Made by a program: the position numbers and the translations under genes | In this document: positions 35,679-49,004 of the stretch, one piece after another | Layout of the letters: each line of letters starts with the position of its first letter | Numbering within the stretch: the first letter of the stretch is position 1 | DNA from: Pukyongia salina | GTDB lineage: Bacteria > Bacteroidota > Bacteroidia > Flavobacteriales > Flavobacteriaceae | Assembly: GCF_002966125.1 (NCBI RefSeq) | Contig: NZ_CP027062.1 | Location: forward strand, 186,001 to 250,000 | Length of the DNA stretch: 64,000 nt | Direction of reading: 5' to 3' | The notes under the pieces: model-generated | What the model was told of the DNA's origin: nothing | Databases searched by the model: none | What the model saw: only the letters and a program-made list of their open reading frames with translations

Positions 35679-35802
35679 AACACTTTTATTTCGGCAATTT
35701 CTAAAAATACGTTAATTCATAATAGTGTTGAAAAAGTTCAACTTTCAATTCCCGAATTTTAGAAATTCCGTTACCTTTAGGCTTCGTTTTAAAAAACTAA
35801 CA

Positions 35803-38283
35803 ATGATTCGCTTAAGCTCTCTTTTACTCTTATTCGTTACCATATCCCTTAACGCACAACTTAAATCGCCCTCCGAATTCCTCGGATACGAGATCGGCAG
35901 TGAATTCTCAAGACACGCCGATGTGGTTAATTATTTTAAACATGTTGCAGACAACAGCGACCTGGTTACCTACCAATCCTACGGAAAAACCAATGAAAGA
36001 AGACCGCTTACCTACGCCATTGTTACGTCCACAGCCAATATGGCGAATATCGATAAAATAAGAAGGGATAACCTTAAGAATATCGGACTCGAAAACGGCT
36101 CGTCCAATCCCGAGATCGCTATTGTATGGCTAAGCTTCAATGTACATGGGAACGAAGCTTCCAGTACCGAAGCCTCGATGACAACCTTATATAAACTTAT
36201 TACCGAGAAAAAGGAATGGCTAAACAATACAGTCGTGATTATCGATCCATGCGTGAATCCCGATGGCCGGGACCGTTACGCAAACTGGTACAACCAGGTG
36301 AAAGCCACGCCCTATGACAAATTACAGGTTGCCGCAGAACACAACGAACCCTGGCCGGGAGGGCGTCCTAACCACTATCTTTTCGACCTTAACCGGGACT
36401 GGGTATGGGCAACCCAAATAGAATCTACCGAAAGATTGAAGATATATAACCAGTGGATGCCACATGTCCATGTCGATTTTCACGAACAGGGAATTAATGA
36501 ACCCTATTATTTTGCGCCTGCCGCAGAGCCTTATCATGAGATCGTTTCTACTTGGCAACGCGAATTCCAGGAAATGATAGGTAAAAATCATGCGCGTTAT
36601 TTCGATAAGGAAGGATGGTTGTTCTTTACCCGAGAACGATTCGATCTGCTTTACCCCAGCTACGGGGATACCTACCCCATGTTCATGGGAGCCATAGGAA
36701 TGACCTACGAGCAGGCAGGTCACGGACGTGCAGGCCTTGGTATCAACACAGACGAAGGCTACGAACTCACCCTCTTCGACAGGGTAGCGCATCACACAAC
36801 TACCGGACTTTCAACCGTGGAGGTAGCTTCTAAAAATGCGAAGAAATTAAACTCAGAATTCAAGAAATTCTTCCAGAATGACAACCTCAAATACAAGAGC
36901 TACGTACTGAAAGGCAATGCCGATAAGATAGACGCACTTACCAAACTGCTTAGGAAACACCAGATCGCGTACGGTTTTGCCTCAGGCGGTACGGTTTCGG
37001 GCTACAGTTATACAACCAACGGGAACGGCAGCATGAATGCCTCCGGTGCACTAGTAGTTAGTACCAACCAACCCAAGGGTAAAATGGTAAAAGCGTTGTT
37101 CGAACCCGACGCCAAATTAAATGAACCCTTAACGTACGATATTACAGCATGGAGCCTACCACGGGCCTACGGATTGGAGGCGATTGCCTCCACATCGAAT
37201 GTGAGCGCGAATAGTGAACTAGCTACATATAACATTAATAATCAGCAGGCTCCGGCATCCCCGGGATATATCAGTAGCTGGAATAGCCTCTACGACGCTG
37301 GTTTCCTTGCAGAACTTCTTAAAAATGACATCAGGGTGCGCTTTACAGAAAAGGATGTGAGCTATGGCGGGAAGACATTTAATAAAGGGAGCCTCATCAT
37401 TACACGAAGCGACAACAAGAAAAATGCAGAGTTTGATCGATTGGTAACGAGCATAGCTACTAAGCACAACCGACAATTATACGCGGCGCCAACCAGTTAT
37501 AGCGATAATGGTTACGATTTTGGATCTCCGGAGATCAAACTGGTGAATAAACAACGGATCGCCGTCCTGAAAGGCGAAGGTACGTCTTCATTGAGTTACG
37601 GAGCCATTTGGCATTTCTTCGAACAGCAACTTCATTATCCGGTGACTTCCATCGATACCGATGGCTTTAATGTGGATAAGCTAAATTCATTTGATGTTTT
37701 AATTCTCCCTTCCGGGTGGTATGGAGGAACACTAAACGATAGCGTGATGGACGATCTGAACGCATGGATACGTGATGGTGGGAAGGTAATCGCCTTTGGC
37801 GGTGCATTGAGATCGTTTTCGGGGAAAGACGGGTTTTCTTTAAAATTCAATGATTCTGATGAAGACGGTGACAATGAAAAATCGGAAAACCTCACCCCAT
37901 ATGACCAGAGAGAAAGAGAAAGTGTGAAAAATTTTATTACCGGTAGTATATACGAAGTGACTTTGGATCCGTCACACCCCATGGCATTTGGTTATGGTGA
38001 TACATATTACAGTTTGAAACTAGGCAGTAGCTCCTATTCTTTCCTCGACAGCGGATACAACGTGGGCTATATAAAAGGTACCCCTGTTAGCGTTTCTGGA
38101 TTCTCGGGTGACGCGGCCAAGGCCGGCCTTGAAAATTCTTTGGTCTTTGGAGAGACTCGAATGGGTCGCGGTAGCGTAGTTTATTTTGTAGACGATGTGA
38201 TGTTCAGATCGTTTTGGGAAAATGGTAAACTTTTCTTTGTAAACAGTATCTTCTTTGTGAACAATAATAAATTCCGAATCTAA
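35803..38283 (+). CDS. M14 family zinc carboxypeptidase, exported
   Basis: Secreted zinc exopeptidase of 826 residues. I start at ATG 35803, which gives a clean signal peptide (MIRLSSLLLLFVTISLNAQ); the upstream extension in the same frame lacks one. Zinc ligands are H115 and E118 in FNVHGNEASS and a third histidine in VDFHEQG near residue 227. The probable catalytic glutamate is in GMTYEQAGHG. After the catalytic domain comes a class I glutaminase-like domain (FDVLILPSGWYGGTL) typical of these large bacterial M14 enzymes. It has no T9SS sorting domain, so it is probably periplasmic. TTACCTTTAGG near 35770 is a weak promoter candidate. Confidence 0.9.
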   Translation: MIRLSSLLLLFVTISLNAQLKSPSEFLGYEIGSEFSRHADVVNYFKHVADNSDLVTYQSYGKTNERRPLTYAIVTSTANMANIDKIRRDNLKNIGLENGSSNPEIAIVWLSFNVHGNEASSTEASMTTLYKLITEKKEWLNNTVVIIDPCVNPDGRDRYANWYNQVKATPYDKLQVAAEHNEPWPGGRPNHYLFDLNRDWVWATQIESTERLKIYNQWMPHVHVDFHEQGINEPYYFAPAAEPYHEIVSTWQREFQEMIGKNHARYFDKEGWLFFTRERFDLLYPSYGDTYPMFMGAIGMTYEQAGHGRAGLGINTDEGYELTLFDRVAHHTTTGLSTVEVASKNAKKLNSEFKKFFQNDNLKYKSYVLKGNADKIDALTKLLRKHQIAYGFASGGTVSGYSYTTNGNGSMNASGALVVSTNQPKGKMVKALFEPDAKLNEPLTYDITAWSLPRAYGLEAIASTSNVSANSELATYNINNQQAPASPGYISSWNSLYDAGFLAELLKNDIRVRFTEKDVSYGGKTFNKGSLIITRSDNKKNAEFDRLVTSIATKHNRQLYAAPTSYSDNGYDFGSPEIKLVNKQRIAVLKGEGTSSLSYGAIWHFFEQQLHYPVTSIDTDGFNVDKLNSFDVLILPSGWYGGTLNDSVMDDLNAWIRDGGKVIAFGGALRSFSGKDGFSLKFNDSDEDGDNEKSENLTPYDQRERESVKNFITGSIYEVTLDPSHPMAFGYGDTYYSLKLGSSSYSFLDSGYNVGYIKGTPVSVSGFSGDAAKAGLENSLVFGETRMGRGSVVYFVDDVMFRSFWENGKLFFVNSIFFVNNNKFRI

Positions 38284-38340
38284 TTAAAGAGTACAAATCA
38301 GGGTTTTTTCTGTAGCTTTTTTCTGAAGTAAATAATTCCA

Positions 38341-38348
38341 TATCTTTA
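38341..38348 (+). promoter_or_regulatory. Probable -7 element of the TPR-CHAT gene
   Basis: TATCTTTA, one mismatch to TAnnTTTG, 21 bases before ATG 38370. This is the housekeeping promoter type, so the CHAT gene need not depend on the neighbouring ECF sigma factor. Confidence 0.45.
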
Positions 38349-38369
38349 TTGGAGTTGGCTGATAATCAG

Positions 38370-41336
38370 ATGAAAAAACTTCTATTCTTTCTTTTTTTCT
38401 TCGGAATTCAATATTCGGGATCTACCCAGGAATGTAATATTTCCGAAGGGATAGAAAAGATTCATACGCTAAATTCTAAAGGGGATTTTAAAGCCGCTCT
38501 GGTATTGGCCGGCAACCTGCAAACTTGCCCTAACTTAGAGGTTGAAAACTCTCTCGAACTGCTGATCTGGGAATATAAATTACACCGAAACCAACTTAAA
38601 AATAAGAAGGCAGAAGAGGCCATAGTGAAAGCGCTGTCCCTTTTAACCCGTACCCGAATGCAAGCCGATAGGGATTTTGAGTTATTGCTACTAGAGCATT
38701 ATGCTTTACGTGGTAAAAAACACGAATTCGATCTCTTGTATAAAAGACTTGAACCGGAGATCGAAGCGTTGAATTCGGATCAATCGGAATTCAAAGGGAG
38801 ATATTACCTCAGCAGACACTATGGGATGGACGGAAATACCTACCCGGCAGAGCGAGTAAATTTTCTGCACCGGGCTCTGGAGCAATTTGAGGCAAGCGAC
38901 TCTATATCCATTTATTATCTGGGCAATACACTTCGCGCCCTGGGCAACCTCAACAGAACTCATGGCGACTATGATAAATCGGCATCCTTTTACCAGAGGG
39001 AGTTGGAATTATATACCTCACACTACCCTATAGATCATTTTAATATCTCCATCTGTAATTACAATCTTGGAGGTGTTTATTATGAGAAACTGGAGTATGA
39101 GAAGGCACTGGACCATTTCCTTAAAGCACATCGAATCTGGATTAAAACATATAAGCCAGACAGTCACCGAATGAGAAGCCTCAATGAAGCCATTGGAGAT
39201 ATGTATTGGGAATTAGACGATCATGAAAAAGCGTTAGAATATTTCAATTATGCAGTTCCCTTTCAAAAACACGTGAATAACGATGAGAGTGAGAGTACTC
39301 TCACTAAGGCCGACAGTCTTCTGGAAGCAGGAAACTATGCCTCCGCAATGATATACTATGAAGAAGCTGTAAACTGGCGTGAAAAGACGTTTGGTAAAGA
39401 TCATTTGCTCACCGGGGCATGTAAAAATTTCGTAGCTCGTGCACTTCATGCCGCTGGTGATGTTCGGGCCTCCCTGGACGCCTACCAGGAAGCTATCAAC
39501 ATACTTGTTGCAGATATGGATAATACATCCTGGTATGCCAATCCCAACCTCAATATGCAGATCCAATCGGGGCAATACCTGCTGGAAGCACTTACTGCTA
39601 AAGGAGAGCTCCTAAAGGAATTATATTTGGAGACCAGCGAATTAAATGATCTGGTTGCCGCCCTGGATACCCAGGAAACAGCGATTCAATTACTGGAAAA
39701 GATCAAAAACAGCGAGATGTCTACCGCCAGTAAATCATTCTGGACCACCAAAACAATAAATCTCGTGGATAGTGCCATTGACACAGCCCTGCGTTTAGAA
39801 TCGGTAACAGGTGACCAAAACTATATCGCTACAGCGTTCAATTTTACAGAAAGAAGTAAGGCCTTATTACTCCTGGCTTCTCTTTATGACCAGGAAGTGA
39901 ATTTATTTGCAAATGTTCCTCAGGAAATCATTCAGAAGGAAAAAGAATTAAAGGCAGGCATCACAGAATATGTAGGTCGCATAGAAAATGAAGAAAAACG
40001 CTGTGCTGAGGTACGAGATAAAATGCTCAAACTATACACCGGGAAATTACATTCTTTGCAAAATAGCTATGATTTGCTAATCAATGAGATCGCCCAGAAG
40101 TATCCCGATTACTACGAGCTAAAATACGATGTGCAAATTGCTTCCTTAAAGGAGATTCAAAAACAGTTGTTAAATAACAAGAAACAAATTATAAGTTATT
40201 TTTCCGGGGCAAAACATACCTATGTCTTCCACATTAGTACTAAGTCTTGCGAAGTTCGTCGTATAGAAAACTCTGCTGAGCTCACTACGCAAATGGCCAG
40301 GTTTTTTGAGATAGTAAGTGGAAATCAGGCCGAAATAAGTAATACAGAGTCGATCGCACAATACACCACCATCGCTTTTCAGTTGTACGATATCCTCCTG
40401 GGTCCGGAATTAGGCGATAGTGAACATCTAAACCAGCTAATTCTTATTCCCGATGGAAATATATCGTATCTGCCTTTTGAGAGTTTGCTTACCCGAGAAC
40501 CCGAAACAGGCGTTATCAACTACAAATACTTACCGTATTTGTTCAGAAAATATGCAGTTTCTTACAGTCCGTCGGCTTCAATAGCCCTTGTCAATAATCG
40601 TCTGAAAAGCAGAGGATCCGGTTACTATGGATTCGCACCCGATTACAACAGCGAAAGTGACAACGAGCTGCGGAAGAAACCTTCCAACCTAAGATATAAC
40701 CAACCCGAAGTTGAATATGCCGGCGAACTGTTCAACGGGGAGATATGGAAAGGAGAAAATGTTACCGAAGAGCTTTTAAAACGCAATTCCGCCAAGGCCG
40801 GTATACTGCATCTGGCAATGCACGGACAGGTGGAAGATGAGCACCCCATGCTATCAAGATTATTCTTTAATAGTTCAGATAACGAGGATGGTATGCTACA
40901 TATTTATGAAGTCTATAATCTCAGTATCCCTGCAGAACTCGTGATTTTAAGTGCGTGTAATACGGCGGCTGGAAAATTGAACAGGGGTGAAGGAATTATG
41001 AGTTTGGAACGAGCCTTTCAGTATGCAGGTAGCAAATCACTTTTAGCAACTTTATGGAGTGTGGATGATGCAGCCTCTTCACGGATAACGCAATTATTTC
41101 TTCAGAATCTCAACAATGGTATGCCGAAAAATATTGCGCTTCAGCAAGCGAAGATCACGTTTTTGGAAACCGCTAATCCCGAAAAACTTCACCCCTTTTA
41201 CTGGAGTAGTTTCAGGTTAACAGGTAACACCAGTTCTTTAAGTCGCGGACTCAAACCATACTATTACGGCATGGGAATTGGCTTTCTGGTTATTATTACA
41301 GCTTTGTTTCTATTCAGAAGAAAAAAGAGGAAATAA
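38370..41336 (+). CDS. Membrane-anchored TPR-CHAT (caspase-like) protein
   Basis: A 988-residue protein with three parts. Residues 1-20 form a signal peptide (ending YSGSTQ). Residues about 25-480 hold TPR-like helical repeats, clearest in YNLGGVYYEKLEYEKALDHF and EAIGDMYWELDDHEKALEYF. Residues about 630-950 form a CHAT domain, the caspase-fold peptidase, with catalytic H818 (LHLAMHGQ) and C863 (LSACNTAAG) both intact. A transmembrane helix (YGMGIGFLVIITALFLF) and a basic tail (RRKKRK) end it. This topology places TPR and CHAT in the periplasm, anchored in the inner membrane (inference). CHAT-TPR proteins are separase relatives; some act in defence or regulated proteolysis. I start at ATG 38370, not TTG 38349. 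It converges on the anti-sigma gene with a 5-base gap. Confidence 0.88.
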   Translation: MKKLLFFLFFFGIQYSGSTQECNISEGIEKIHTLNSKGDFKAALVLAGNLQTCPNLEVENSLELLIWEYKLHRNQLKNKKAEEAIVKALSLLTRTRMQADRDFELLLLEHYALRGKKHEFDLLYKRLEPEIEALNSDQSEFKGRYYLSRHYGMDGNTYPAERVNFLHRALEQFEASDSISIYYLGNTLRALGNLNRTHGDYDKSASFYQRELELYTSHYPIDHFNISICNYNLGGVYYEKLEYEKALDHFLKAHRIWIKTYKPDSHRMRSLNEAIGDMYWELDDHEKALEYFNYAVPFQKHVNNDESESTLTKADSLLEAGNYASAMIYYEEAVNWREKTFGKDHLLTGACKNFVARALHAAGDVRASLDAYQEAINILVADMDNTSWYANPNLNMQIQSGQYLLEALTAKGELLKELYLETSELNDLVAALDTQETAIQLLEKIKNSEMSTASKSFWTTKTINLVDSAIDTALRLESVTGDQNYIATAFNFTERSKALLLLASLYDQEVNLFANVPQEIIQKEKELKAGITEYVGRIENEEKRCAEVRDKMLKLYTGKLHSLQNSYDLLINEIAQKYPDYYELKYDVQIASLKEIQKQLLNNKKQIISYFSGAKHTYVFHISTKSCEVRRIENSAELTTQMARFFEIVSGNQAEISNTESIAQYTTIAFQLYDILLGPELGDSEHLNQLILIPDGNISYLPFESLLTREPETGVINYKYLPYLFRKYAVSYSPSASIALVNNRLKSRGSGYYGFAPDYNSESDNELRKKPSNLRYNQPEVEYAGELFNGEIWKGENVTEELLKRNSAKAGILHLAMHGQVEDEHPMLSRLFFNSSDNEDGMLHIYEVYNLSIPAELVILSACNTAAGKLNRGEGIMSLERAFQYAGSKSLLATLWSVDDAASSRITQLFLQNLNNGMPKNIALQQAKITFLETANPEKLHPFYWSSFRLTGNTSSLSRGLKPYYYGMGIGFLVIITALFLFRRKKRK

Positions 41337-41341
41337 GCCGA

Positions 41342-42091
41342 TTAATTTTCAATTTTAGTGTTCAGTATTTTTTTTGCCTTACGGTGATTGTAGGTCTTGT
41401 TCTTTACGATCTCCTTAAAAACCTGTTTAGCTTCGATTTTCCTGCCGTTCTTTAATATGGCGAGCGCATAATACCAATTTGCCTGTTCTTTGTAGTCTGA
41501 ATTCTCCAGCCGCACCTCGTTGAAATAATAAGCAGCATCCACATAATCCGGATGTTCGAGTTGTAAATAACTCATTCCCTGGTAGAATTCACGGGTTGTA
41601 AAATGCACGTTGTCGTTTTGTGATATCTCAAAATACTGTAAAGCATCCTCATAATTACCTGCATAATAGTATTCGACGGCCTTATTCCAGTTCTCCGATC
41701 CTTCATCGATATTATCCCTTAACACAGATGGTGGGTCGTAAGGTTCGTAATATCGGTCGTAAACTTCTGCTGTGGTCATGCTGCCGCTAAGATTAAAAAA
41801 CAGGCTAACACCTAAGATCACTACAAGTATAGCTGCAACTGCCATCAAAGGCCGGGGTTTTATTCTTTTCACCGGAACCTTAGTCTTTGCCTTCTCCTCA
41901 ATACCTTGTAATGTAGATTGTAGTTCGAGCCTCCCTACCTCATCGATCAACTTATGCGCCGCAAGCGTAGCCTGATAAGCATCATTGAATGAGGGATCAT
42001 GTTCGAGTCTATGCTCAAAATCCTTCCGTTCCTCTTCACTCATATCGCCCTGGATGTACCGGTCTATTTCTATTTCGTGTGAATCATTCAT
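41342..42091 (-). CDS. Putative anti-sigma factor with a periplasmic TPR domain
   Basis: A single-pass membrane protein of 249 residues. Residues 1-80 are cytoplasmic and resemble the zf-HC2/anti-sigma start (EIDRYIQGDMSEEERKDFEHRLEHDP), without a Cys-His zinc site. One transmembrane helix spans about 81-102. Residues 115-249 are periplasmic TPR-like repeats (AVEYYYAGNYEDALQYFEIS and ANWYYALAILKNGRKIEAKQVFKEI). Its start overlaps the end of the ECF sigma gene by 8 bases, the normal sigma/anti-sigma arrangement. By inference it binds and silences that sigma factor and senses a periplasmic signal through the TPRs. Confidence 0.8.
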   Translation of the reverse strand: MNDSHEIEIDRYIQGDMSEEERKDFEHRLEHDPSFNDAYQATLAAHKLIDEVGRLELQSTLQGIEEKAKTKVPVKRIKPRPLMAVAAILVVILGVSLFFNLSGSMTTAEVYDRYYEPYDPPSVLRDNIDEGSENWNKAVEYYYAGNYEDALQYFEISQNDNVHFTTREFYQGMSYLQLEHPDYVDAAYYFNEVRLENSDYKEQANWYYALAILKNGRKIEAKQVFKEIVKNKTYNHRKAKKILNTKIEN

Positions 42092-42719
42092 TGGATCTTA
42101 ATATTTGTATCAATGCGGGGCGGCTACTGATCAATTCTTTTAATTTTTTAAGGCATTTGTATTTTTTATTCCTAACTATCTGATCGCTACTAAAATTACC
42201 CGCCGCAGCAATATCCTTCATAGAAGTGTTGTGGTAAATACTTTCCACTAGTATCTTTTTGCAGTCCTCTCCCAGTAAGGCAATTACCTCCAATACCTGT
42301 TGTCTGTTTTCACCTCTAATGATGGTTGCAAGTTGCCCCTTTATTTCCTGATCGCCTTGTTCGAGGGCGTTGTGATGTTCATCTCTCACCTTATCCTTTT
42401 TTATCTGGTTTAACCACTTGAACCTTGCAACTGAATACAGATAGGTACTAATGGCGCTTTCGCCTTTAAAAATATCCTCCTTTACGTTTTCATAGAACGC
42501 AATAACCGATTCCTGGAAGATATCTGCCGCTTGTTCGGTTGTCCCGCTATTGGATAAGACAAATCCGAATATCCGTCCCCGATTTTGCTGATATATCAGC
42601 TCGAGTGCCTGGTTTCGCCCGGGGTTTCCTCCCTTTAGCAGATCCAATAGTTCATTATCCGGCAGTGGTTTTTTGATAGTATGTAAGTTTTGAGAGACGG
42701 TTTGTAATAAAAATATCAA
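42084..42719 (-). CDS. ECF-type RNA polymerase sigma factor
   Basis: Alternative sigma-70 factor of the extracytoplasmic-function class, up to 211 residues. Sigma region 2 is seen in LELIYQQNRGRIFGFVLSNSG, AADIFQESVIAFYENV and the core-binding/melting stretch STYLYSVARFKWLNQIKK. Region 4 follows as IALLGEDCKKILVESIYHNTSMKDIAAAGNFSSDQIVRNKKYKCLKKLKEL, a helix-turn-helix. There is no ATG near the N-terminus: the longest frame starts at TTG 42719. The true start may be this TTG or slightly downstream. It is transcribed ahead of, and overlapping with, the anti-sigma-like gene, and divergent from two surface-protein genes. Confidence 0.9.
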   Translation of the reverse strand: MIFLLQTVSQNLHTIKKPLPDNELLDLLKGGNPGRNQALELIYQQNRGRIFGFVLSNSGTTEQAADIFQESVIAFYENVKEDIFKGESAISTYLYSVARFKWLNQIKKDKVRDEHHNALEQGDQEIKGQLATIIRGENRQQVLEVIALLGEDCKKILVESIYHNTSMKDIAAAGNFSSDQIVRNKKYKCLKKLKELISSRPALIQILRSNE

Positions 42720-42734
42720 AAAAAATGCACAATG

Positions 42735-42797
42735 AAGGTTACAATTCCTGTCCGGCGGTTTACATAGAAGTGAAGAAACCCAAAATTATGTAACCTT
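42735..42797. repeat. Inverted repeat in the sigma/surface-protein divergent region
   Basis: Perfect 9-bp arms AAGGTTACA (42735-42743) and TGTAACCTT (42789-42797), 45 bases apart. Each arm is 15 bases from the start codon it faces (TTG 42719 and ATG 42812). The AACC core recalls ECF -35 elements, but it is too close to the annotated starts to be a -35 for them. It may be an operator or mark different starts. Confidence 0.55.
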
Positions 42798-42811
42798 TTA
42801 AATTATTAATT

Positions 42812-43297
42812 ATGAGTAAAAACAAACTAAAACACCTAATCATCTGCGCCATCTGGCTTTCCGGATTGACGGTTTTTGCACAAAGCAATACAGTAACTGC
42901 CGGAGGCGACGCTTCCAGCCCGGACGGTTCGGTGAGCTATACCATAGGGCAGCTGGACTATATCGAAGCTAGTGGATCCGGAGGAACTGCCAGCCAGGGT
43001 GTTCAGCAACCTATCGAAATAATTATACTGGGCAACAATGATTATGAAGAGATTAACCTGATCGCCTCCATTTACCCCAATCCAACGGTGAATCATGTAA
43101 CACTTATGGTTCAAAATATGGACCCTTCAGGTATGGAATTCCAATTGTACGATCTGTCCGGGAGAATGCTTCAGAAAAAAGTAATTAAGCAGAACAACAC
43201 TGTTGTATCTATGGAGTATCTGTCATCGGCCACCTATTTTCTGGCTGTAACAAAACATGGATCAGTATTGAAAACCTTTAAAATAATCAAACACTAA
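42812..43297 (+). CDS. Short secreted protein with a type A T9SS sorting domain
   Basis: A 161-residue surface or secreted protein. Residues 1-24 are a signal peptide (ending TVFAQ). The region SNTVTAGGDASSPDGSVSYTIGQLDYIEASGSGGTASQGVQQP is a motif found before sorting domains in many Bacteroidota proteins. From about residue 80, YPNPTVNHVTLMVQN to FKIIKH is a Por_secre_tail domain. There is almost no other functional domain, so it may be a small surface factor or a carrier. Starts at ATG 42812 preceded by AT-rich AATTATTAATT. Followed after 11 bases by the 604-residue gene. Confidence 0.85.
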   Translation: MSKNKLKHLIICAIWLSGLTVFAQSNTVTAGGDASSPDGSVSYTIGQLDYIEASGSGGTASQGVQQPIEIIILGNNDYEEINLIASIYPNPTVNHVTLMVQNMDPSGMEFQLYDLSGRMLQKKVIKQNNTVVSMEYLSSATYFLAVTKHGSVLKTFKIIKH

Positions 43298-43308
43298 AAA
43301 TTTTAATT

Positions 43309-45123
43309 ATGAAAAATATTACAATTCTTTTTATCGCTTTGCTCAGTTGTCTCGGCACTTGGGCGCAAACACCGGAAAAAATGAGTTTTCAAGCTGTAGT
43401 GCGCGATGCAGCCGGTGACCTTATAACAGACACGACCATAGGGATGCAAATAAGTGTGCTTATGGGTTCACCCACCGGAACAGCAGTATATGTAGAGACC
43501 CATACCCCCACTACCAATACTAATGGTCTGGCCACTGTGGAGATTGGAGACGGAACCGTTGTTACCGGAAGTTTCTCTGCTATATTCTGGGAATTAGGAT
43601 CGTATTATCTTAAAACGGAGATCGACCCTGCAGGTGGAACAACCTACACCATAGAATCTACTACCCAGTTAATTAGTGTTCCCTATGCCCTTTTATCCAA
43701 AGACACGGAGAATAAGAATACCCTTGATGAGGCATATGACGAAGGAGGGGCCGGACTTGGCAAGAGTATTACGGCAGATGCTGGTCCTGTGGAGATCATA
43801 GGCGACGGAGATTTTGCCTTAGAAGTGGTTTGCGACCCAGACTTTTCGGGAATATATGTGGAGGGAGTTACAGCAATCGATCATGCCGCGATCTACGGTT
43901 TTGGAGACGGAGATGCCTACGGGGTATGGGGAAGTAATAGTGGTGCCAGTTCCTCCTTGTACGGCTGGCATAACGGGACCGGAAACGCACTTGATATATT
44001 GCATCTGGGCACAGGTAAAGGAATTTTTTTAGAGAACGCCGGTACAGGATTGTCGCTGGATATACTTCAGGGCAATCCTGCAAACGCCACTACCGCACTA
44101 ATAGCTTCTACTATGGGAACCGGTGGAGTCGCCTTCTTTAACACAGATGATAATAACGCCAACCTGGCCAATACACTGGTCACCAATAATAATGCGGCCG
44201 GAAGTGCGGCTCAGTTTATCATAACCGATGAAGTTGCCGGAAAAGTAAATGGAAAACCGGCTGTAGAAGTTCTAACCAATGGGAAAGGCCCTGGTATGAA
44301 CGTAATTGTGATGAATCCCGCCATGGGTGCCGATATGAATGCAGAACCGGCTGTATTTGCCAAACACGACGGATATGGTAATGGAGCGTTTTTGGAGACG
44401 CCAAAATCAGACAACACCAAGTCCACACTTGAAATTAAGAACAACGGTACCGGACATGGCGCACATATCGATAGCTTTGGAAATCCGGGAATAAACGTAG
44501 AAGCTACTTTGTACGTAGAACAGGGAAACTCCTCTACGGTTGCTGCTAAAGGAAGAACTGCGATCTTCGATCTGCATCCTGCCGGTACCTCGGCAGATGC
44601 TGCCGTCTTAATTCGATCAAGTGCCACTTCGGGGGGGAGCAGTGCCTTACGGGTTATTCCTGCCGATGCCACTAAACTGGCTGCGGTTTTTGAAGGGGAT
44701 GTGGAGGTTGCTTCCGATATTACAATTGGAGGTATGATGAGCGCAGCAGCCAAGGCGTTTAAAATAGACCATCCTTTGGATCCTGAAAATAAATTCCTGG
44801 TACATAATTCTATCGAAAGTAATGAGAGGGTGAATATATATAGTGGAAATATAACAACCGATATCGAGGGATATGCTACGGTACAATTACCAGACTATAT
44901 GAGCGCGCTCAACAGAGATTATAAATACCAACTAACAATAGTGGATAAGGAATTTGCTCAGGCGATCATCTGGGAGCCTCTTAACGAGGAGTCCAACTCC
45001 TTTGTTATAAAAACCAGTGTTCCGGAAATAAAGCTAAGCTGGCAGGTTACAGGAACCAGGCAAGATACCTGGGCTCTTGAAAACCCCATGCAAGTGGAGG
45101 TAGCCAAAAATACGGAACAGTAG
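43309..45123 (+). CDS. Large exported repeat-rich protein, candidate surface structural protein
   Basis: A 604-residue protein with a signal peptide (residues 1-19, ending TWAQ). An N-terminal module (KMSFQAVVRDAAGDLITDTTIGMQISVLMGS ... ISVPYALLSKD) is common at the start of Bacteroidota surface proteins. The middle (about 150-470) is built of short glycine/asparagine-rich beta-strand repeats (GTGKGIFLENAGTGLSLDI, NGTGHGAHI) like those of beta-helix or fibre proteins. The C-terminal 120 residues begin KIDHPLDPENKFL and contain SGNITTDIEGYATVQLPDY, a conserved module of unknown role. No T9SS sorting domain is visible. Co-transcribed with the preceding gene; ended by a strong terminator. Binding or shielding function is inferred. 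Confidence 0.75.
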   Translation: MKNITILFIALLSCLGTWAQTPEKMSFQAVVRDAAGDLITDTTIGMQISVLMGSPTGTAVYVETHTPTTNTNGLATVEIGDGTVVTGSFSAIFWELGSYYLKTEIDPAGGTTYTIESTTQLISVPYALLSKDTENKNTLDEAYDEGGAGLGKSITADAGPVEIIGDGDFALEVVCDPDFSGIYVEGVTAIDHAAIYGFGDGDAYGVWGSNSGASSSLYGWHNGTGNALDILHLGTGKGIFLENAGTGLSLDILQGNPANATTALIASTMGTGGVAFFNTDDNNANLANTLVTNNNAAGSAAQFIITDEVAGKVNGKPAVEVLTNGKGPGMNVIVMNPAMGADMNAEPAVFAKHDGYGNGAFLETPKSDNTKSTLEIKNNGTGHGAHIDSFGNPGINVEATLYVEQGNSSTVAAKGRTAIFDLHPAGTSADAAVLIRSSATSGGSSALRVIPADATKLAAVFEGDVEVASDITIGGMMSAAAKAFKIDHPLDPENKFLVHNSIESNERVNIYSGNITTDIEGYATVQLPDYMSALNRDYKYQLTIVDKEFAQAIIWEPLNEESNSFVIKTSVPEIKLSWQVTGTRQDTWALENPMQVEVAKNTEQ

Positions 45124-45144
45124 AATTTAATTCTACACTTTTAA

Positions 45145-45176
45145 GAGAGCTGCCATTGGCGGCTCTCAATCTTTTT
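45145..45176 (+). terminator. Intrinsic terminator after the surface-protein pair
   Basis: Ten-base-pair stem, GAGAGCTGCC with GGCGGCTCTC (one U-G pair) around an ATT loop, followed by AATCTTTTT. A small TAGAATT/AATTCTA palindrome directly precedes it and includes the stop codon. Confidence 0.85.
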
Positions 45177-45216
45177 GTATGCAGCTATCTGGTTCAAAAA
45201 AAAATGCAATACCTAT

Positions 45217-45354
45217 TTAGGTGTCGGAATAATGAGGTTCCAGATCTAAAACTGCGTCTGCAGTGAAGTATCGCTCAGATTTTATGATCTCATAAAACCA
45301 CTCCAGAAAACTCTGTGATCGACGCTTAAACGTGTAATTTAATTTCTGCTCCAT
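45217..45354 (-). CDS. Possible small protein of 45 residues
   Basis: A short reading frame from ATG 45354 to TAA 45217. The predicted product begins MEQKLNYTFKRRSQSFLEWF and ends LDLEPHYSDT; it is basic at the N-terminus and acidic at the C-terminus with an aromatic helix between. It has no signal peptide. A TATCTTTA -7-like element on the same strand at 45404-45411 would give a leader of about 45 bases. It lies alone between a convergent terminator and a divergent lipoprotein gene. I do not recognise it; it could be chance, since 45 codons in AT-rich DNA is not long. Confidence 0.35.
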   Translation of the reverse strand: MEQKLNYTFKRRSQSFLEWFYEIIKSERYFTADAVLDLEPHYSDT

Positions 45355-45551
45355 AATAAATAAGGTTCAGCATAAACAGGATCACAATGGAATAGGGCTA
45401 GTATAAAGATAGGGAAGAATAATACTAAAACGTACTCTTTTTCCTACTTTTGGTAGTTTTTTTCTTACAATTAATCGGAGTTTTATCCAGGATTTCTAGA
45501 TTTATCTTAAATTCATTGCCAGCGAGATTAACTTTACCTCTAAACTCTGTT

Positions 45552-46481
45552 ATGAATAAAATCTGCTTTATCCTTCTGCTAACTGTTTTAATTGCATGCA
45601 AAACTGAAGAATTTAAAGACCCACCAGCACCGGCACCCAATTACGAAGGGATAAGTCTGTTAGGCGACACCCTGCGATCCAAAGCTCCTTCCGAAGCTTT
45701 TATGCAGCGCTATGAGGAGAAGAAGAAAAACTACAACGAAAACCCCGATGATCTGGATGCACTCATTTGGTATGGACGGTTTACCGCCTACAAAGGTGAT
45801 TACAGAAAGGCAATAGAGATCTACACAGATGGATTAAAGAAATACCCCGATGAATCAAGGTTGTTAAGGCATCGCGGACATAGATATATTTCCATTCGGG
45901 AATTTGATAAAGCGATCGCCGATCTTTCTGCAGCAGCTAAATTAATTGAAGGAAAAGAAAACCAAACAGAGCCGGATGGAATGCCTAATGCCAGAAATAT
46001 TCCTGTAAGCACCATGCATGGAAATATACACTACCATCTCGGGCTGGCTTATTACCTGAAACAAGATATGCGTAATGCGCTTGAGGCCTATAAAAATTGC
46101 CTGGAAACATCTTCGAACCCGGATAATGTTGTATCTGCCACCCATTGGATATATATGATCAATCGCCGTATGGGTAGGTTAGAAACGGCAGCGCAATACC
46201 TCGTTAATATTGATGAAGATATGGACGTGATCGAAAATGACGCTTACCATAAGGCATGTCTGGTATACAAAGGGGTGCTAAAACCTGAAGTTGTTTACGA
46301 TCCGGGATCAACGGATACCCCTTCCGGAAGTGCACTAAAATATGCTATTGGCAACTGGTATTATTACAACGGCGACAGGAAAAAGGCCGAACAGATCTTC
46401 AGGGAGATCGTAGCGGGTGACGATTGGGCGTCGTTTGGGTATATCGCCGCCGAAAGCGATCTCGCAAATTACTTTAACTAA
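45552..46481 (+). CDS. TPR-containing lipoprotein
   Basis: A 309-residue outer-envelope lipoprotein. I start at ATG 45552, which gives a signal peptide MNKICFILLLTVLIAC with a lipobox (LIAC) and the acylated cysteine at residue 16; the longer frame upstream has no ATG and no signal. The mature part starts with a Pro-rich linker (PPAPAPNYEG), then TPR repeats from about residue 55 (DALIWYGRFTAYKGDYRKAIEIYTDGLKKYP; HYHLGLAYYLKQDMRNALEAY; YAIGNWYYYNGDRKKAEQIFREI). TPR lipoproteins bind protein partners at the outer membrane. TAACTTTA at 45529-45536 is a possible -7 element. Confidence 0.85.
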   Translation: MNKICFILLLTVLIACKTEEFKDPPAPAPNYEGISLLGDTLRSKAPSEAFMQRYEEKKKNYNENPDDLDALIWYGRFTAYKGDYRKAIEIYTDGLKKYPDESRLLRHRGHRYISIREFDKAIADLSAAAKLIEGKENQTEPDGMPNARNIPVSTMHGNIHYHLGLAYYLKQDMRNALEAYKNCLETSSNPDNVVSATHWIYMINRRMGRLETAAQYLVNIDEDMDVIENDAYHKACLVYKGVLKPEVVYDPGSTDTPSGSALKYAIGNWYYYNGDRKKAEQIFREIVAGDDWASFGYIAAESDLANYFN

Positions 46482-46499
46482 ATAAACCAGACTTTTACT

Positions 46500-47729
46500 T
46501 TAAAAACGGTTCTTTAGTTCGATCCATTTGCTCATGTACTTAGAGGCTTGCAGGTTTTGCTGGTGAAGCACCTGGCCTACAAAATTCCTATTGCGATGGC
46601 TGTGAAGATCATTATTTAAAACTTCTAGTTTTCTTTTAAAAGTTTCTGAAAAAAGCCTTAGATCGAAACGATTTCTTAGAATGTTGAATCCCTGATCCCG
46701 CGCCATATTCCACGAATTCTCATTCGAAAATAACCGAATAGCCGCCTCGATAAGTTGTCCGGGTTCTTCTTCCACAGCACCGCAGAAGGGAAACTTACCG
46801 TTAATGCCCTCGGCACCAATGGCAGTAGTAACCACCGGTGTTCCATTGCGCATTGCATCCAGGATCTTACCTTTTAAACCGGCCCCAAACCGAAGGGGTG
46901 CTAGACATAATCTCGCATTTTGCATCATCTTGTTCACATCCTGTGCCCATCCTTTAATGTGAAATCCCGTATGTTGATCGTGAAGTTGAGTGATCTGTTG
47001 CGGAGCATAATTCCCGTAAACATGCAGTTCTGCTGAAGGAAGCGCTTCATGGATCCCGGGCCAAATTTCGGTGGCCAGCCATTTTACGCTGTCCAGGTTG
47101 GGTGCATGCTGAAAATTCCCGATCGTGACCATATGGCTGCGTTGCTCAAAACCGGGTGATTCGGCTTGCTGCAGTATAGAAATATCTGTCACCAAAGGCA
47201 GGTAGAACAAGATCTCGGATGAGATCCTGAATTGATCTTGTAATAAGTCCAGTTCTGTTTCGGAAATAATAAGTGAAAGGTCCGATCTCAATATACTTGC
47301 GATCTCCCGTTTGGCAAGATTGGTATACACATTTGCTTCTGAAACAGATAAGCCTTCTTTTATCGCCAATTCCCTCGCTTTACGTAAAAAATGAAGATCT
47401 TCTGTATCCAGGATCCTAACTGCCTCGGGACAGGTTTGGGCGACGCGCCAACCAAATTGTTCTTCGGTGATATAACGATCGAAGATCACAACCTGTGGAT
47501 CCAGTTCCCCGATCAGTGCATCAAAAGATGGATGGTTTAGCTGAATGCTTTCTACCGAGATTCCCATTTCTTCCAGAGATGCCGACTTCTCCATAGCCGA
47601 GGCCGTGCTTCCGAAAGTAATTTGGTATCCAAACTCCCTGAAAAGATCAATTAGTTGCATCATCCGAACCCCGGCTGCCGTGGTGGAGGGTTCGGGAAAG
47701 GTATGGCCTATTACAAATAGTTTCTTCAA
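46500..47729 (-). CDS. Glycosyltransferase of the GT4 (group 1) type
   Basis: A 409-residue GT-B fold glycosyltransferase. The N-terminus (KKLFVIGHTFPEPSTTAAGVRMMQLI) is the acceptor-side Rossmann fold, and the C-terminal half holds the donor-site segment APLRFGAGLKGKILDAMRNGTPVVTTAIGAEGI, with the E/G-rich pattern of GT4 enzymes. The donor and product are unknown; a role in envelope glycans is inferred. It lies 3 bases after the sialidase-like lipoprotein gene, at the end of the ftsY-rimO transcript. Confidence 0.85.
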   Translation of the reverse strand: MKKLFVIGHTFPEPSTTAAGVRMMQLIDLFREFGYQITFGSTASAMEKSASLEEMGISVESIQLNHPSFDALIGELDPQVVIFDRYITEEQFGWRVAQTCPEAVRILDTEDLHFLRKARELAIKEGLSVSEANVYTNLAKREIASILRSDLSLIISETELDLLQDQFRISSEILFYLPLVTDISILQQAESPGFEQRSHMVTIGNFQHAPNLDSVKWLATEIWPGIHEALPSAELHVYGNYAPQQITQLHDQHTGFHIKGWAQDVNKMMQNARLCLAPLRFGAGLKGKILDAMRNGTPVVTTAIGAEGINGKFPFCGAVEEEPGQLIEAAIRLFSNENSWNMARDQGFNILRNRFDLRLFSETFKRKLEVLNNDLHSHRNRNFVGQVLHQQNLQASKYMSKWIELKNRF

Positions 47730-47732
47730 GGA

Positions 47733-49004
47733 CTAAAGTTTGTCCAAAGATAAGGTGGCAGTTTTAATTGAAGATGTTCCTTTATTTACTACCGTCCACG
47801 CGGTGAACAATTCGGTACCTAGTCTTTCCAACTGCGGGAATCCACTTGCTCGTTCTGCGCTGGTATGGGATATTGTTATCGGGTCTCCTTTCTTTCCTTC
47901 TGAAGTTACTTTAAGTACCCTGATCGTTTCTTCATCGCCGTCTGGTTCCATCCACATTACAGCCGCCTCCGTTTCATTTAGCATAACCACATCTACCCTG
48001 CCGGTAGCATTCCCGGAATCGATCCTGATTGGCTTACCATATGATCTACCCACATCATTCGAAAATACTAGTTGTACTTTTCCTTCGCCTCCCACGGCCG
48101 TAAACCAGGCAACGGCTAAAGAATTCCCGAATGAGTCGATAGCAGGCCCGTTAACAGGGCAGCCATCAATTTTCCACTGGTCGTCCCCAATGGGCAAAGG
48201 TTCGCTCCAACCGTCCTTTTTATCCCATCGTACCACGGAAATATCTCTTATCTCACCTTCTTTTCTGTCCCTGTAAGCCACAATGATCTCATCGTCCGGC
48301 CCAATGGCCGATGCAGTCTGGCAGCAATCGCACACGCGATCATCCATTAAGGTATCGTAATCTATCGTTCCATCTTCGAAAAGCAGTGCGGCCCGAAGGG
48401 TCATAGCTCCTTGTCCGTGTCCCTTCCCTACCGTTTCCCGTCCATCTAGCCAGGTAAAGAGAAAAGAATTCCCTGTGTAGGGACGTACAGATACAAATCC
48501 ATGTTCGCTTTGGGTGCCATCATCGTGCAACAGAAAATTGTTTTTCACGAAACTGGTGTTCGAGTTGAAAAAGTTAAGTTTTACGTCGTAGGTGTAGGTG
48601 CCTGTAGCAGATTTTTGTAAAAAACTACTCACGATATTACCATTATTCTCGGCAATTACCGGGAAATCGGCCCAATTAACAAACCAATCGGAACCCGAAC
48701 TTTCCTCCAAATAATCGGACCAGGATCCATTTGAGTAGCTTGCGTACTTAAGAATAGCAAGGCTGTCTTTCTTCTCGACCCATGACATATAGATTTCCTT
48801 GCCGTTACTAAATATCCTGGGCAGTGAACTATTACCCTCTACCGGATTTGGTAGCTGCGTTACCACCGATGTTTTAGTTTCTGTATTCCCAACTTTTGTT
48901 TCACTATCCTTACAGGCTATAATTAGCGTGCTAAAAAGGAACAGGAGGAGGAGATAACTTACTATTTTCGAGATGTCAAGTGCTAAGCGATTGTTATTTC
49001 TCAT
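47733..49004 (-). CDS. Sialidase-like beta-propeller lipoprotein
   Basis: A 423-residue lipoprotein. The signal (about residues 1-31) ends in a lipobox, LIIAC. The rest is a six-bladed-like beta propeller with Trp/Ser/Gly-rich repeats (e.g. NSLAVAWFTAVGGEGKVQLVFSNDVGRSYGKPI) that databases usually call exo-alpha-sialidase. I see Asp-box-like SNDVGRSYG but not a full sialidase active site with the arginine triad, so an actual sialidase role is uncertain. It follows rimO by 16 bases in the ftsY-led cluster. Confidence 0.75.
   Translation of the reverse strand: MRNNNRLALDISKIVSYLLLLFLFSTLIIACKDSETKVGNTETKTSVVTQLPNPVEGNSSLPRIFSNGKEIYMSWVEKKDSLAILKYASYSNGSWSDYLEESSGSDWFVNWADFPVIAENNGNIVSSFLQKSATGTYTYDVKLNFFNSNTSFVKNNFLLHDDGTQSEHGFVSVRPYTGNSFLFTWLDGRETVGKGHGQGAMTLRAALLFEDGTIDYDTLMDDRVCDCCQTASAIGPDDEIIVAYRDRKEGEIRDISVVRWDKKDGWSEPLPIGDDQWKIDGCPVNGPAIDSFGNSLAVAWFTAVGGEGKVQLVFSNDVGRSYGKPIRIDSGNATGRVDVVMLNETEAAVMWMEPDGDEETIRVLKVTSEGKKGDPITISHTSAERASGFPQLERLGTELFTAWTVVNKGTSSIKTATLSLDKL

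Follow-up and report, generated by a model that had tools for sequence, protein, structure and literature searches.

A predicted periplasmic TPR-CHAT peptidase as the likely site-1 protease of an envelope-sensing ECF sigma switch in Pukyongia salina and other Bacteroidota

The locus at positions 38370-45123 of the window (the whole analysed stretch of Pukyongia salina DNA, 64,000 nucleotides) raises the question of what a TPR-CHAT peptidase does beside an ECF sigma factor, a putative anti-sigma factor and two exported surface proteins. A preliminary description of the locus had proposed that a periplasmic CHAT domain cleaves, or releases, the anti-sigma factor and so frees sigma to transcribe the surface genes. 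We consider it likely that the locus encodes an envelope-sensing ECF switch in which a periplasmic, separase/caspase-like TPR-CHAT enzyme serves as the site-1 protease, although cleavage, its site, the downstream steps and the regulon are all inferred. The supporting sequence evidence consists of gene content, predicted topology, phylum-wide linkage, an invariant catalytic dyad, covariation and paired promoter-like elements. The genes are as follows.

38370..41336, plus strand: TPR-CHAT peptidase gene, 988 aa (signal peptide, TPR array, CHAT domain, C-terminal transmembrane helix, RRKKRK tail)
41342..42091, minus strand: anti-sigma gene (cytoplasmic helical N domain, one transmembrane helix, periplasmic linker, TPR domain; topology predicted)
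42084..42647, longest open reading frame to 42719, minus strand: ECF sigma gene, start probably TTG 42647
42812..43297, plus strand: exported protein with T9SS type A sorting domain (TIGR04183, 2.5e-12)
43309..45123, plus strand: exported large fibre-like protein (weak MAT_N match)

All five genes of the preliminary description were confirmed at their positions in the open reading frame list, as were the overlap of the sigma and anti-sigma genes (8 bp) and the divergent orientation of the two exported surface genes relative to sigma. As a refinement, the CHAT gene is convergent with the sigma and anti-sigma genes and stands outside their operon; the CHAT and anti-sigma stop codons are separated by 5 bp. 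In the profile search, the 43309 product weakly matched the N-terminal domain of "mosaic adhesive trimer" fibre proteins. The sole PADLOC output at the locus was one generic weak TPR model, and neither Cas7-11 (gRAMP) nor a CRISPR array was evident among the open reading frames at 36000-48000, as judged from their list without a dedicated search. It was also noted that an exported M14 carboxypeptidase (35725-38283) lies directly upstream of CHAT on the same strand and is kept in two relatives (L143 and L145); it was not seen adjoining CHAT in a third (L066) and is not a constant CHAT neighbour across loci.

We then assessed the identity of the three core proteins. The CHAT domain scored 182.7 bits against a Pfam cut-off of 24, with TPRs also matched. 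The catalytic residues had been described as intact, and this held, the numbering of H818 and C863 being correct from the ATG at 38370. The His/Cys dyad was invariant in 78 of 78 CHAT proteins from the family neighbourhoods analysed below; peptidase activity itself is inferred. The sigma protein matched Sigma70_r2 (4e-7) and sigma70-ECF (1.5e-16; 60.4 bits against a cut-off of 42.9), and profile matches to ECF structures extended across both the sigma2 and sigma4 regions, the only regions present. We regard TTG 42647 as its probable start because the longest reading frame (to 42719) overlaps a promoter-like element, and this start agrees with homologue lengths. The 41342 protein gave weak TPR matches and only weak, sub-threshold matches to anti-sigma profiles. 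Its AlphaFold2 model (mean pLDDT 74.5) comprised helices at residues 3-68, forming a helical N domain of about 65 residues, a transmembrane segment at 82-102 and a TPR array at 130-243, and a Foldseek search with this model returned TPR proteins. The protein has some features expected of a membrane anti-sigma factor, namely a gene that adjoins and overlaps that of an ECF sigma, a single transmembrane helix and a predicted cytoplasmic N terminus, with sigma binding and inhibition inferred. The positions on which the argument rests are as follows.

40374..41228, plus strand: CHAT domain PF12770 (Pfam E=1.4e-53)
40707..40709, plus strand: E780, predicted S1 (P1-binding) residue at the start of helix alpha1, by analogy with PMC4626109
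40821..40823, plus strand: catalytic His818, invariant
40950..40958, plus strand: S861-A862-C863, with catalytic Cys863 (invariant) and the Cys-2 pocket position 861
41067..41069, plus strand: D900, predicted second acidic S1 residue, in LWxxxD, separase Asp2070-like
41259..41315, plus strand: C-terminal transmembrane helix of the CHAT protein
41717..41719, minus strand: R125, predicted P1 residue (cleavage site) in the linker between transmembrane helix and TPR domain of the anti-sigma factor
41795..41851, minus strand: anti-sigma transmembrane helix, residues 81-99 (hydropathy, AlphaFold2)

The proposed interaction depends on the two proteins meeting in one compartment. Topology was assigned with simple hydropathy rules and no trained predictor for both proteins. 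A signal-peptide-like start was found in 71 of 78 CHAT proteins, and a C-terminal transmembrane helix followed by a net positive tail in 72 of 73; the CHAT and TPR domains of the peptidase are therefore placed in the periplasm. The model that emerges from sequence alone is of a periplasmic CHAT anchored in the inner membrane. A cytoplasmic CHAT domain, previously named as a refuting result, was tested by topology and not found. The anti-sigma proteins possess one transmembrane helix with more positive charge on the N side in 74 of 78 cases, and on this basis the N domain is assigned to the cytoplasm and the TPR domain to the periplasm. The AlphaFold2 domain order is consistent with this assignment. 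It follows from the two predicted topologies that the CHAT protease and the anti-sigma TPR domain share a compartment, which supports the earlier claim that both TPR domains and CHAT lie on the same side of the membrane.

The conservation check suggested in the preliminary description was run on the family and on the phylum, and the neighbourhood was found to be conserved far above chance. The family sample comprised 149 genomes, one per genus, searched with both the anti-sigma and CHAT proteins. Among the 89 anti-sigma homologues in the match list, 78 lay within 7.5 kb of a CHAT homologue; chance linkage is estimated at well under 1%, from an approximate count of 90 such CHAT genes over some 540 Mb. 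For the other 11, no CHAT was found within 20 kb, several of them lying on short contigs. The module was encountered in roughly half of the genera sampled. Every one of the 78 fetched neighbourhoods contains CHAT and anti-sigma by selection; sigma was not selected for and was present in 75, the next commonest family occurring in 18. In a phylum sample of 198 genomes, CHAT linkage held for at least 47 of the 66 anti-sigma matches (a lower bound); the linked cases span several families and include genomes from beyond the class. Four relatives (L066, L143, L144 and L145), Aequorivita vitellina among them, carry all five genes, and a single-protein scan of genome contigs returned only three close relatives, each with the full set.

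A referee may ask whether these genes merely hitch-hike together, linked without functional interaction, and some loci of gene order IV (defined next) do lie within long conserved syntenies. The gene orders were convergent as in the window (27 loci), a sigma-anti-sigma-CHAT operon (17), CHAT divergent behind one exported gene (13; gene order III), CHAT in a longer divergent operon (17; gene order IV) and other (4). Because the linkage survives four different gene orders, hitch-hiking is hard to credit. The presence of the module in further families and outside the class also argues against it, as do the co-divergence of the trees and the residue covariation described below. Trees of CHAT, anti-sigma and sigma were correlated (r 0.76-0.84, versus at most 0.10 in free shuffles), and the correlation also exceeded all shuffles within gene-order classes. 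We consider this explanation all but excluded. Two further observations concern gene content: the CHAT operon of gene-order-IV loci such as L087 includes a PKD/DUF7619/DUF7849 protein and lipoprotein-like genes, and four loci (L132, L162, L166 and L183) possess two tandem CHAT genes near a single anti-sigma gene.

The preliminary description had left open whether CHAT cleaves or releases the anti-sigma factor. The alignment showed that the anti-sigma linker between transmembrane helix and TPR domain is variable except for one near-invariant basic residue (R125 in the window). This position is Arg, rarely Lys, in most modules and Met in all operon-type modules. A scan of CHAT columns for positions acidic in the Arg/Lys-linker group but not in the Met group yielded one within the CHAT domain, 780. 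An Arg linker is paired with E780, S/N861 and D900; a Met linker with L/V/I/A780, T/S861 and E900 (19 of 19 loci); and a Lys/Gln linker with D861, E900 and an altered 780 (4 of 4 loci), as in L126 (Gln linker, K780) and L142 (Lys linker, D780), both with D861 and E900. A further 40 regions were fetched afterwards, their linker residue being read by eye from the alignment. They contained two new Lys-linker modules (L181 and L184, both D861/E900) and one new Met linker (L150, with A780/E900); the remaining regions with a complete CHAT paired Arg with E780, S/N861 and D900.

Arg-type CHAT domains have 42 conserved columns. Only 780, 861 and 900 differ in both the Met and the Lys/Gln groups, and the latter shows no other change at these columns. 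Given the trio, the odds that the Lys/Gln group would match it exactly are 1 in 11480, a figure that serves as a guide and not as a p-value because the trio was found partly post hoc. On a CHAT tree built without these three columns, the Met and Lys/Gln groups arose separately. As each switch occurred only once, two independent events underlie the covariation. Against it, two Lys linkers (L069 and L139) go with an Arg-type pocket.

The same three positions appear to correspond, by analogy and from sequence alone, to the S1 positions of clan CD peptidases. They were assigned without a structure because the AlphaFold2 model of the CHAT protein was poor (mean pLDDT 51; four-sequence alignment). 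In clan CD, S1 specificity is located in alpha1, L4 and L5 (PMC4357240), and the P1 residue is held at the start of alpha1 by caspase-3 Arg64, gingipain Asp163 and MALT1 Asp365 (PMC4626109). Cys-2 is an S1 position in metacaspases and clostripain. Separase has an acidic residue near alpha1 (PMC4626109) and a conserved Asp that binds P1 Arg; in the human enzyme this is Asp2070, 41 residues after Cys2029 (PMC10317155). Here D900 follows C863 by 37 residues and belongs to an LWxxxD motif. Acidic residues at alpha1 and in the LWxxxD region thus fit a separase-like preference for P1 Arg by sequence position only, and such specificity is not shown to be special to the module since an acidic 780 may be a general CHAT feature. 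The covariation supports the cleavage branch of the earlier proposal and also names a site: CHAT is predicted to cut the anti-sigma factor after R125, with cleavage itself still inferred.

The same covariation would fit a second reading, in which the linker is a securin-like pseudosubstrate. R125 would then occupy the CHAT active site in a mutual hold without cleavage, and a signal would break the complex and free sigma. Separase is indeed inhibited by a pseudosubstrate (PMC10317155). However, securin replaces the P1 Arg with a large hydrophobic residue, whereas Arg is kept here in nearly all loci, as in substrates, and the invariant Cys/His dyad implies catalysis. We therefore regard this reading as very unlikely and retain site-1 cleavage as the preferred one.

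Next, we examined the link between sigma and the surface genes. Two promoter-like elements were found back to back in the 92-bp gap between sigma and the T9SS gene.

42680..42707, minus strand: promoter-like TTACA-N17-TACATA upstream of sigma
42739..42766, plus strand: promoter-like TTACA-N17-TACATA upstream of the surface genes

The wider pattern TTACA-N17-KACATA occurs in 6 copies in the 3.18 Mb genome. Both gap copies are conserved in L066 and L143, and L144 and L145 retain the copy facing the T9SS gene. The copy on the sigma side has the position of a sigma promoter provided that TTG 42647 is the start codon. The other four genomic sites revealed no convincing regulon and the genome total was no higher than that of a reversed control pattern, so only the paired gap sites are counted as evidence. 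A search for a motif shared by every one of the 75 regions upstream of sigma found none. Loci of gene order IV share a conserved GGGTAAC/GATAT pair of their own in the gap adjoining sigma, and a TGTTACCC element precedes sigma in both order III and order IV. In 46 of 60 loci the gene divergent from sigma encodes an exported protein, compared to 39% of other genes (p=1.5e-8; in-house signal-peptide rule). The back-to-back elements support the earlier claim that sigma controls the surface genes, the regulon being inferred.

These data bear on a third reading, in which CHAT is an effector or target of the switch, co-regulated with the surface proteins and processing them, while a DegS-like protease cuts the anti-sigma factor. 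In its favour, gene orders III and IV place CHAT and exported proteins in one divergent operon, and there sigma may transcribe CHAT. Against it, the reading does not predict matched changes in the linker and three pocket positions, and the CHAT gene of the window is convergent, without a TTACA-N17-KACATA element before it. We consider it unlikely. A PDZ serine protease is not a member of the module itself, as only CHAT, anti-sigma and sigma are shared by nearly all of the 78 neighbourhoods.

Under the preferred site-1 reading, the cytoplasmic N domain of the anti-sigma factor would tether ECF sigma to the membrane at rest. A signal, not identified, would be sensed by CHAT through its TPR domain, by the anti-sigma factor through its periplasmic TPR domain, or by both. 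CHAT would then cut the exposed linker on the C-terminal side of R125, some 25 residues from the membrane on its outer face, and thereby shed the TPR domain. The remaining stub would probably be removed by an RseP-type M50 peptidase, which the genome encodes, together with cytoplasmic proteases, and the freed sigma would act at the TTACA-N17-TACATA promoters, driving its own operon as well as the divergent surface genes. The preliminary interpretation is supported overall, with cleavage and the steps after site 1 remaining inference. Its claim of a departure from the DegS/RseP cascade is narrowed to a predicted replacement of DegS by CHAT at site 1; the RseP step may still be needed.

The DegS/RseP-RseA-sigmaE and RsiW-type systems likewise pair a one-transmembrane anti-sigma factor with an ECF sigma and an extracytoplasmic, near-membrane cut (predicted here). 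The DegS-type site-1 enzyme is a PDZ serine protease, whereas a clan CD cysteine peptidase is predicted in this module, and, unlike in RseA, the anti-sigma periplasmic domain is a TPR array. The nearest precedent for the logic is the type III-E Craspase, where TPR-CHAT (Csx29), an ECF sigma inhibitor (Csx30) and RpoE (CASP-sigma) are also encoded together, and TPR-CHAT cleavage of Csx30 relieves sigma inhibition (PMC10028731, PMC9729208). The relay of protease, inhibitor and sigma is therefore already known; the compartment, trigger and inhibitor differ here. Craspase is cytoplasmic and activated by target RNA through Cas7-11, and Csx30 is not a membrane anti-sigma factor, while the present CHAT is predicted to be exported and membrane-anchored. 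Craspase TPR-CHAT has K670 in place of the separase Asp (PMC9729208), and its known sites of cutting show no conservation (L|D, M|K, A|S), none having Arg at P1 (PMC11106740), in contrast to the conserved linker Arg found here. This counts against the site-1 argument to the extent that a CHAT protease need not rely on a conserved P1.

Two other groups share parts of this arrangement. ECF54 has a CHAT gene near the ECF sigma, in a context of CHAT, subtilase and carboxypeptidase genes, with proteolytic control proposed; it was described without an anti-sigma factor (PMC8999054), whereas one adjoins sigma here (the loci having been selected by anti-sigma). EACC2 links a caspase-fold peptidase with an ECF sigma and a TPR protein (DUF1822), but has another domain architecture, is proposed to be a conflict system and has no membrane anti-sigma switch described (PMC8195603). 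In the literature searched, the full ECF classification excepted, we found no account in which a membrane anti-sigma factor is the target of a periplasmic CHAT.

A class I anti-sigma domain is recognised near only 6% of Bacteroidetes ECF sigmas (PMC7406223), so the control of these sigmas is largely open. A TPR anti-sigma factor cut by a periplasmic caspase/separase-like enzyme is a candidate answer, and the module offers a cellular counterpart to the Craspase relay. As one cleavage residue and three pocket residues are named, the proposal is testable by point mutations. A bolder reading, towards which we remain tentative and slightly more doubtful than inclined, is that these are phylum-wide Bacteroidota envelope systems whose periplasmic separase-like P1 pockets co-evolved with Arg, Lys/Gln or Met to form insulated parallel pathways within one cell, and that Craspase-Csx30-RpoE is a captured, RNA-triggered form of this older logic.

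The same genome contains a second module (L129, at 1.645-1.649 Mb) of the operon type, with a Met linker. It was noted that its apparent operon continues into further exported genes downstream (genome 1636863-1656462). Two short CHAT-like reading frames of 321 and 339 aa, with a partial CHAT profile match, were also encountered in this genome (L003 at ~3.093 Mb and L004 at ~2.813 Mb). Lastly, sigma residues C138 and C174 (196-residue numbering from 42674; 42087-42674) were invariant in 29 diverse sigma factors of the module.
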